From contig DASRDP010000110.1 of the NCBI GenBank assembly GCA_035652535.1, positions 1-51,408 of the forward strand: DNA of 51,408 nucleotides, in the 5' to 3' direction. This DNA comes from Chloroflexota bacterium. GTDB lineage: Bacteria; Chloroflexota; UBA6077; SHYK01. How positions within the stretch are numbered: position 1 is the stretch's first letter; every line of letters starts with the position of its first letter. The position numbers and the translations under genes were made by a program. Below are positions 3,083 through 5,140 of this stretch, piece by piece. The notes below the pieces were generated by a model. It worked only from the letters and a program-made list of their open reading frames with translations. It made no database searches and had not been told where the DNA came from.

Positions 3083-3168
3083 TGGTGCCGAAGGGGGGAT
3101 TCGAACCCCCACGAGGTTGCCCTCAACGGTTTTTGAGACCGCCGCGTCTGCCGTTCCGCCACTTCGGC
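3083..3168 (-). tRNA. tRNA-Leu (anticodon CAA)
   Basis: The minus strand folds into an 86-nt class II tRNA. It has a 7-bp acceptor stem GCCGAAG/CTTCGGC, discriminator A and a genomically encoded CCA tail (3085-3083). The anticodon loop is CTCAAAA, giving anticodon CAA, which reads UUG. A long variable arm and a T-arm GGGGGTTCGAATCCCCC complete the structure. The long variable arm and anticodon identify leucine. The T-loop and 3' end abut a truncated toxin fragment. Confidence 0.96.
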
Positions 3169-3310: not shown

Positions 3311-4105
3311 GTGGGACTTCTCTCGGGCAAGACGGCCCTCGTCTTCGGCGTCTCCAACGATCACAGCATCGCGTGGGGGATCGCCCAAGCCTTCGCGCGG
3401 GAGGGCGCGCGGCTGGGCTTCAGCTACGCCGTGCCCATGGAGCGCTGGGCGCGCCCCCTCGCGGAGTCCCTCGGCTCCACGTTCATCGAGCCGTGCGACG
3501 TGACGCGCGACGATGAGATCGCAGCCGTCATGGAAAAGGCCGAGGCGCAGCTCGGAGCCGTCGATGCCATCGTGCATTCGGTCGCCTTCGCGCGACGCGA
3601 GGAGCTCTCGGACGCGCCCTACTACTTGACTTCGCGCGACGGGTTTCACGTCGCCATGGACGTCAGCGTGTACTCCTTCACCGCGATCGCGCGCCTCGCC
3701 CTTCCGGTGATGCGGCCAGGCGGCGCCCTACTCACCATGACGTATCTCGGGTCCGAGCGCGTGGTCCCCCACTACAACGTCATGGGGCTCGCAAAGGCGG
3801 CCCTCGAGGCCAGCGTCCGCTACCTCGCCTACGACCTGGGCCGCGACGAGAAGCGTCTGCGGGTGAACGCCATCTCCGCCGGCCCGATCCGAACCCTGGC
3901 TGCGCGCGGCGGCATCACGGGGTTCGCCCGCATGCACGCGGAGTTCAAAGGAATCGCGCCCCTGCAGCGCAACGTGACCACCGAGGACATCGGCAACGCC
4001 GCCGTGTACCTGTGCTCCGATCTGGCGGCCGGTGTGACGGGAGAAGTCCACTTCGTGGACGCCGGCTTCAACATCGTCGGTGTGACGGAGAGCGAGCCGG
4101 GCTGA
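3311..4105 (+). CDS. fabI: Enoyl-[acyl-carrier-protein] reductase (NADH), FabI
   Basis: A 264-residue short-chain dehydrogenase/reductase that reduces trans-2-enoyl-ACP in the last step of each fatty acid elongation cycle. The divergent FabI nucleotide motif appears at the N-terminus (VFGVSNDHSIAWGIA, residues 11-25). The catalytic pair is Tyr155 and Lys162 in the spacing Y-x6-K, and the extra FabI tyrosine is Tyr145 (TYLGSE), matching Y146/Y156/K163 of the E. coli enzyme shifted by one. AGPIRTLAARG is also typical. The start is GTG 3311 with GGGAGG five nt upstream. The gene stands alone, with no other fab genes in the window, and faces a convergent small RNA unit and murI. Confidence 0.95.
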   Translation: MGLLSGKTALVFGVSNDHSIAWGIAQAFAREGARLGFSYAVPMERWARPLAESLGSTFIEPCDVTRDDEIAAVMEKAEAQLGAVDAIVHSVAFARREELSDAPYYLTSRDGFHVAMDVSVYSFTAIARLALPVMRPGGALLTMTYLGSERVVPHYNVMGLAKAALEASVRYLAYDLGRDEKRLRVNAISAGPIRTLAARGGITGFARMHAEFKGIAPLQRNVTTEDIGNAAVYLCSDLAAGVTGEVHFVDAGFNIVGVTESEPG

Positions 4106-4135
4106 GGCCGACCGGTGATGACCCCAAAAACAGCC

Positions 4136-4166
4136 TGAGGCCCTTTGGCACAGCCAAAGGGCCTCA
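4136..4166 (-). terminator. Rho-independent terminator (stronger on minus strand)
   Basis: A perfect 13-bp inverted repeat (4136-4148 / 4154-4166) with a 5-nt loop. On the minus strand it is followed within a few nt by a run of five T, which fits termination of the small minus-strand unit. On the plus strand it follows fabI by 30 nt but has no T tract, though it may still stabilise or stop that transcript. Confidence 0.8.
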
Positions 4167-4199
4167 TCCACAGGCCTGGGACATTACCTCGAAGGTCGG

Positions 4200-4244
4200 C
4201 TAGCGCACCGCCTCCGAGGTAATGCCCATAGGTTGATCACTCAT
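4200..4244 (-). CDS. Possible micropeptide (14 aa)
   Basis: The ATG at 4244 begins MSDQPMGITSEAVR and stops at TAG (4202-4200). The ribosome site AAGGAGGTGAT matches the 16S anti-Shine-Dalgarno over 11 positions, far better than any other start in this window, with 5 nt between its end and the ATG. Both sit inside the arm 1 strand of a predicted hairpin. I do not recognise the peptide. The strength of the ribosome site argues for translation; the short length leaves open that it is only a leader peptide that opens and closes RNA structures. Confidence 0.4.
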   Translation of the reverse strand: MSDQPMGITSEAVR

Positions 4245-4269
4245 GGGCATCACCTCCTTCGCGGTAGGG

Positions 4270-4299
4270 AATATATCACGGTATTGAGAGGCCAGCCAA
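4270..4299 (-). promoter_or_regulatory. Promoter of the small RNA/micropeptide unit
   Basis: Minus-strand -35 TTGGCT (4299-4294) and -10 TATATT (4275-4270) are separated by 18 nt. They lie just after the murI stop codon (4331) and 26 nt before the micropeptide start, so the unit does not depend on murI transcription. Confidence 0.55.
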
Positions 4300-4330
4300 A
4301 TCGAACACGCCGTCGCGTGTCACAAACGCA

Positions 4331-5140
4331 TCACCCGACGGCGGCCCCGATGGCGACGTGGCGAACCGGCCCCGGCTCGCGACCGGTGAGCGACGTGAAG
4401 ACGCGGGCGAACGTCGCGGGGTCGCCCGTCGTGAAGTAGCTCGTGCTCCCAACTTGCCCGTTCGCCGCGATCCCCTCGAGGCGCAGCACTCTCGCAACCT
4501 GGCGGGCCACGGCGCCGACGGGATCCAGCACCATGACCGAGGGGCCACAGAGGCGCTCAATGATGGGGCGCACAAACGCATAGTGGGTGCACCCGAGTAC
4601 GACGACGTCTGCTCCGGCGGCAAGGATCTCCGTCAGATAGCCTGCCAGCAGGCGCTCCATTTCCTCCCCACCCACGACACCCTGCTCAATGAGCGGCACC
4701 AGATCGGGGCACATCTGCGTGACCACGCGCGTCCCGACGGCGAACTCCTGAATCAGCCGAGCTAGGCGCCGGCTCACTGCCGTCGTCGGCGTCGCCAGCA
4801 CGCCAATGGTGGCGGTGCGTGTCTGCTCCGCGGCCGGCTTGACGCCCGGGTCCAGCCCGATGAACGGAACGTCGAAGCGCTGGCGCAAATGGCCGAGGGC
4901 CACGACGGACGCGGTGTTGCAGGCCACGACGATGGCCTTCGCATCCATCCCCAGCAGATACTCGACGATCTCGTCGCAGCGGCGCTCGATCTCACGCGGT
5001 GTCTTCGTCCCGTAGGGCGCCTGCTGGCTGTCGGCAAGATAGATACAACGCTCCCCCGGCGCGTGCGCGCGGATCGCCTGCAGTACCGTGATGCCGCCCA
5101 TGCCGGAGTCGAAAACGCCGATCGTCCGCTCGTCACCCAT
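4331..5140 (-). CDS. murI: Glutamate racemase
   Basis: A 269-residue Asp/Glu racemase that makes D-glutamate for peptidoglycan. Both catalytic cysteines are present, Cys74 in ACNTAS and Cys184 in LGCTHYAF, as is the N-terminal GVFDSGMGG with Asp11. The usual murI length is about 260-285. I chose ATG 5140 because it gives the family N-terminus and lies 10 nt behind a perfect TATAAT; longer in-frame extensions to about 5467 overlap the divergent gene and look spurious. There is no clear ribosome site, consistent with a leaderless or nearly leaderless mRNA. It is divergent from the fchA-like gene across 77 nt. Confidence 0.93.
   Translation of the reverse strand: MGDERTIGVFDSGMGGITVLQAIRAHAPGERCIYLADSQQAPYGTKTPREIERRCDEIVEYLLGMDAKAIVVACNTASVVALGHLRQRFDVPFIGLDPGVKPAAEQTRTATIGVLATPTTAVSRRLARLIQEFAVGTRVVTQMCPDLVPLIEQGVVGGEEMERLLAGYLTEILAAGADVVVLGCTHYAFVRPIIERLCGPSVMVLDPVGAVARQVARVLRLEGIAANGQVGSTSYFTTGDPATFARVFTSLTGREPGPVRHVAIGAAVG

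Follow-up and report, generated by a model that had tools for sequence, protein, structure and literature searches.

The window analysed here, the whole 51,408-nucleotide stretch of a contig from a Chloroflexota bacterium, contains a short segment between murI and an enoyl-ACP-reductase-like gene that carries a promoter, a strong ribosome-binding site, a tiny reading frame and a terminator. What does a unit of this kind do when no gene follows that it could control? From the sequence alone, the original prediction proposed either a regulatory RNA that stands on its own or a micropeptide whose synthesis is tightly controlled. We compared the element across the phylum and asked which of its parts are conserved.

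Architecture of the locus

The candidate small RNA gene occupies positions 4299-4126 of the minus strand, promoter included. The promoter, Shine-Dalgarno (SD), ATG, 14-codon frame and three arms of the original prediction are all present on this strand. The predicted promoter TTGGCT-18-TATATT (4270..4299) has 9/12 matches (0.1 in shuffles) and a TG before the -10 box; such an extended -10 is also found in same-family members (TGATATGAT, TGATATCAT, TGGTATGAT). Transcription is predicted to start at about 4263, a few nucleotides 5′ of the extended SD AAGGAGGTGAT (4249..4259, minus strand), an 11-nt complement of the 16S 3′ end that occurs five times in the 4.45-Mb genome. The micro-ORF MSDQPMGITSEAVR (4200..4244, minus strand) runs from the ATG at 4244 through 14 codons to a TAG at 4202-4200.

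Three arms, all on the minus strand, overlap these signals. Arm A (GAGGTGATGCCCAT, 4243..4256) takes in the greater part of the SD together with the spacer and the beginning of the ATG. Arm B (ATGGGCATTACCTCGGAGGCGGT, 4207..4229) lies within the ORF and can pair either with A (inverted repeat 4243-4265/4207-4229) or with arm C (CCTTCGAGGTAATGTCCC, 4178..4195), which is located 3′ of the stop codon (inverted repeat 4211-4227/4179-4195). An intrinsic terminator follows (4126..4166, minus strand), with a 3-nt loop and TTTTT about 5 nt past the stem; terminator and T run are as predicted, and the stem (4166-4136) has 14 bp, not 13. The minimum free energy of the 151-nt RNA is -82.3 kcal/mol (z -6.3), a value as good being reached in 0/200 shuffles.

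Upstream, murI (Asp/Glu racemase family) lies on the same strand as the RNA. Downstream, the RNA converges with an SDR gene of enoyl-ACP-reductase type, and its own strand carries nothing ahead of that gene. A tRNA gene (Rfam tRNA) is located at 3086-3168 of the minus strand, just before the SDR gene.

Distribution across Chloroflexota

BLAST identified the same element in three genomes of the same family and in two further genomes of the phylum. A first covariance model, built from six sequences, was widened twice; of 400 genomes sampled from the phylum, the three successive models (the last termed R3) were positive in 58, 112 and 153, at E ≤ 0.01 for the first two models and E ≤ 0.001 for the third, where model E-values are rough and some matches near the thresholds are false. 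A lack of conserved arms or ORF in close relatives had been named as grounds for rejecting the prediction; both proved to be conserved phylum-wide. The element is present as a single copy in all but one of the 153 positive genomes (third model). Matches L064, L190, L201-L205, L207, L208, L211 and L212 were judged false by eye, the ORF or arms being missing; L179 and L232 are doubtful, and weak BLAST matches in G053 and G043 (L014, L015) were attributed to chance. One metagenome-assembled genome (MAG) has a contig that ends in a pair of inverted copies (L105; JADLCW010000533.1, 5809-5936) and a third copy at the start of contig JADLCW010000495.1; its extra copies are likely an assembly artefact.

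A scan of 84,980 species, which covered the other phyla with one sequence pattern, yielded 79 stretches, all from Chloroflexota-named records or unnamed bacteria with one exception. The records included Chloroflexus, Roseiflexus, Oscillochloris, Herpetosiphonaceae, Thermomicrobiales, Anaerolineales and others. The exception (L138, JAAUTF010000045.1) is a Chloroflexales-type copy in a MAG labelled Candidatus Gracilibacteria, on a contig with a neighbour gene that also occurs at Oscillochloris-type loci; it probably represents a mis-binned or mislabelled MAG. The element was absent from a phage collection searched by blastn, and viral contigs scanned with the sequence pattern gave no match. Against Rfam 15, which includes Chloroflexi-1, the window and relatives matched only tRNA and tmRNA genes at the gathering score, weaker E-value matches being chance noise. 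A literature search limited to open-licence papers found no earlier description.

Covariation of the competing arms

The B:C helix covaries throughout. All 21 of its 21 model pairs show changes on both sides, double-sided change cells number 341 as compared to 114 in shuffles (0/500 shuffles as high), and sliding the alignment register destroys the signal in every register. Since the alignment was fitted to the structure, we added an alignment-free swap test. B:C pairing was stronger with the own partner (-33.7 kcal/mol) than with that of another species (-22.9 kcal/mol), and A:B pairing likewise (-21.9 vs -17.3 kcal/mol, divergent clades included).

Across 109 distinct members, arm A (AAGGAGGTGATGCC) hardly varies, whereas B and C drift, which indicates a further constraint on A; in C, no conserved sequence of its own was seen beyond complementarity to B. 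The constraint on A would most simply be the tail of 16S rRNA. In 11 of the 20 relatives' genomes searched within Chloroflexota, the 16S 3′ tail reads GGCTGGATCACCTCCTT. The 16S end was not found in the window's own genome, an incomplete assembly in which the candidate tails lie outside 16S, and the tails of relatives were used instead. Spacing between SD and ATG is 8 nt in 97/104 members. L052, L055, L059, L072 and L053 have AAGGGGGTG in place of AAGGAGGTG; the 16S tails in the family of L052, L055, L059 and L072 nevertheless read CACCTCCTT.

No conserved core was found beyond the SD/ATG region except for a short pre-SD box in some clades. At Chloroflexales and Thermomicrobiales loci this box, TGCCGNNCAGGC or ACCGNNCAGGGTA, immediately precedes the SD, a place that the -10 box takes in the family of the window and at Anaerolineae-like loci.

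Predicted folding of the start region

The original prediction described the SD as buried. Arm A indeed covers most of the SD and the ATG; in many relatives, however, A:B is predicted to cover mainly GGUGAUGCCC and the start codon, with AAGGA, the SD's 5′ half, left largely open. In the energy model, GGUGAUGCCC is closed in the RNA without C (0.00-0.05 unpaired at most positions) and opens partially when C is included, with unpaired values rising to 0.14-0.39. With C, the SD is predicted to be mostly open in only 43/109 members. Forcing the SD open costs a median of 2.6 kcal/mol relative to the minimum, and the SD is open to a similar degree when the sequence 3′ of arm A is shuffled; this near balance of energies and the similar openness in shuffles leave the final state uncertain.

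Conservation of the micro-ORF

An ORF of 12-22 codons is present in 145 of 147 distinct members, against 31 expected from shuffles, and in 35 of 37 matches not used in model building (7.5 expected). A first automatic count gave five failures, four of which arose from the script choosing an upstream G run (sequences shown for three). The distance from ATG to B is a multiple of three in 100/102 members, and indels in the loop are whole codons; B starts 18-24 nt past the ATG in most members. Changed loop codons comprise 561 non-synonymous and 88 synonymous cases. The ORF is thus kept even though non-synonymous changes far exceed synonymous ones, which indicates that translation is conserved and the peptide is not. 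The peptides are short, hydrophilic and not membrane-spanning, and no codon motif was found in the ORF. Within the loop, serine is almost always encoded by AGT and arginine by CGT, a pattern that points to a constraint on nucleotides, not residues. RNA structure alone may account for part of the codon constraint.

The ORF ends in TAG in 95, TAA in 45 and TGA in 6 members (n = 146), as compared to TGA in 134/356 neighbouring long ORFs, an avoidance of UGA with p ~1e-21, uncorrected for relatedness. It could possibly stem from release-factor-1 decoding or from the structure of the B-C loop.

Neighbouring genes and terminator

The genes beside the element vary by clade and include a convergent bL25, an upstream LysM lipoprotein, a carbon-nitrogen hydrolase, an M24 peptidase of the methionine-aminopeptidase type and murI. 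No co-directional downstream gene is constant across clades, such a gene being present only in the smpB clade. Since the neighbours differ by clade, the element appears to be a stand-alone RNA in most of them. A terminator hairpin of at least 8 bp is found in 142 of 145 members examined. Core and terminator pair no better with each other than when swapped (-11.5 kcal/mol for own pairs and -11.8 kcal/mol for swapped ones; rank 0.55), and therefore no antiterminator is visible. A terminator that is near universal outside the smpB clade and unpaired with the core does not fit a conventional attenuator. The idea of a stand-alone regulatory RNA thus gains strong support from phylum-wide arms and ORF, B:C covariation and the lack of both a constant downstream gene and an antiterminator.

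In a single clade that takes in two families, the ribosome-rescue gene smpB lies directly downstream on the same strand, at 150-300 nt, in at least 22 loci, L172, L176 and L186 among them. In three of these loci, ssrA (tmRNA) then follows. Several hairpins of the smpB clade have no U tract.

Comparison with known systems

The mRNAs of type I toxins such as AapA3 of Helicobacter pylori and hok form successive metastable hairpins that hide the SD during transcription (PMC6733600). Our element resembles them in having hairpins that would hide the SD as the RNA is made. It differs in that there is no membrane toxin, the residues are unconserved, no antisense antitoxin was seen in a consensus promoter scan, and the element is phylum-wide and single-copy. 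RNAIII/hld and SgrS are dual-function or peptide-coding small RNAs. Small RNAs of this kind have been surveyed (PMC5521070); like them, the element would be an independent small RNA with an ORF inside, whereas its peptide gives no sign of selection on amino acids and what is chiefly conserved is the complement to 16S.

Extended SDs and the rbfL leader ORF have been described in S. aureus (PMC13009471). With leader peptides and translational attenuators (trp, erm, rbfL) the element shares a short ORF, competing arms and a fold that would be chosen by translation, and the marks of a leader peptide, namely a short ORF, an SD inside competing arms and a conserved frame, are found in silico. Unlike trp, erm and rbfL, it has no constant downstream gene, no terminator-core pairing and no ORF codon motif, and smpB follows in one clade only. 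In Sinorhizobium, the leader peptide peTrpL is reported to act in trans (PMC7298713). The two would share a leader-type short ORF with a role beyond its own operon; the Chloroflexota RNA has no trp operon, is unrelated in sequence and encodes an unconserved peptide. Chloroflexi-1 RNA (RF01698) is a Chloroflexota RNA candidate from comparative genomics (PMC2864571) from which our element is distinct, as the window and relatives have no Rfam match to it. The resemblance to riboswitches noted in the original prediction is one of layout, no conserved aptamer-like core having been seen beyond the SD/ATG region and, in some clades, the box before it. The element would also set translation as signal apart from the peptide as product with no gene downstream, a combination that, to our knowledge, occurs in no described family.

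Proposed mechanism and alternative explanations

We give an even chance to the proposal that this is a stand-alone Chloroflexota RNA in which translation of the micro-ORF switches between A:B, with the start hidden, and B:C, with the start open. The single-copy gene would yield an RNA of about 130-140 nt in the window, transcribed from a start beside the extended SD. During synthesis, arm B would pair with A and hide the start region; C, once made, would capture B in a longer and more stable helix, reopening A. The 5′ half of the SD would stay accessible as a landing site for the 30S subunit, and the initiating ribosome would read across B to the UAG or UAA between B and C. Because the ribosome passes through B, translation itself would reset the choice between A:B and B:C, and the peptide would be a by-product. 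The arms and their covariation, the kept frame with its unconserved peptide, the 16S complement, the terminator and the lack of a constant downstream gene are shown by computation; transcription, folding order, actual translation and output are inferred. Our best guess is that the RNA serves to read out or buffer initiating or free ribosomes, because the sole near-invariant sequence faces the 16S tail and smpB lies downstream in one clade.

Conservation of the 16S complement is also consistent with a ribosome trap, in which the 11-nt SD and the B:C hairpin, situated directly in front of the ribosome's entry site, would hold an initiating ribosome for hibernation or buffering and elongation would be secondary. 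In most members B starts at about the position of the ribosome's entry edge, as a trap would suggest. A pure trap has no need of a conserved frame and stop codon, and we consider it unlikely, although it heads the alternatives. Behind it we place control in cis: the RNA would be the leader or attenuator of a gene that follows it, such as smpB, with translation of the leader setting termination or access, and in most lineages that gene would have disappeared from this position. The smpB loci, at 150-300 nt on the same strand in at least 22 cases from two families, and the hairpins without U tract in several of them fit this idea; the next gene being convergent or different in most clades (the convergent SDR gene in the window) and the absent core-terminator pairing (rank 0.55), with no antiterminator seen, make it improbable.

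An mRNA for a functional micropeptide, be it a type I toxin, a signal or a small regulator, with tightly controlled translation is more doubtful again. A strong SD, a frame and stop that are kept, and SD-hiding hairpins like those of type I toxin mRNAs would suit it, but the residues vary freely with non-synonymous changes above synonymous ones, the peptides are short, hydrophilic and not membrane-spanning, and a consensus scan of 4050-4400 found nothing on the plus strand that matches a promoter from which an antisense RNA could be made. On the evidence of these amino-acid changes, the micropeptide half of the original prediction is not borne out. We regard as least probable a trans-acting, base-pairing small RNA with arm C or the loop as its seed, whose ORF would only control the exposure of C. 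The independence of the gene, for which both a promoter and a terminator are predicted, would fit this idea, and C is free in the A:B state; the lack of conserved sequence in C beyond its complementarity to B argues against a seed.

Significance

Returning to the translation-driven switch, we put forward more tentatively, as a possibility that we ourselves doubt, that it acts in Chloroflexota as a housekeeping RNA and senses the availability of ribosomes, its product being the passage of the ribosome itself, and that it is tied to ribosome rescue (smpB) in one clade. If real, the element, spread over a deep phylum, nearly always single-copy and apparently undescribed, would count as a core RNA gene that annotation has missed, and its compactness would make it a suitable system for work on SD recognition and folding switches.
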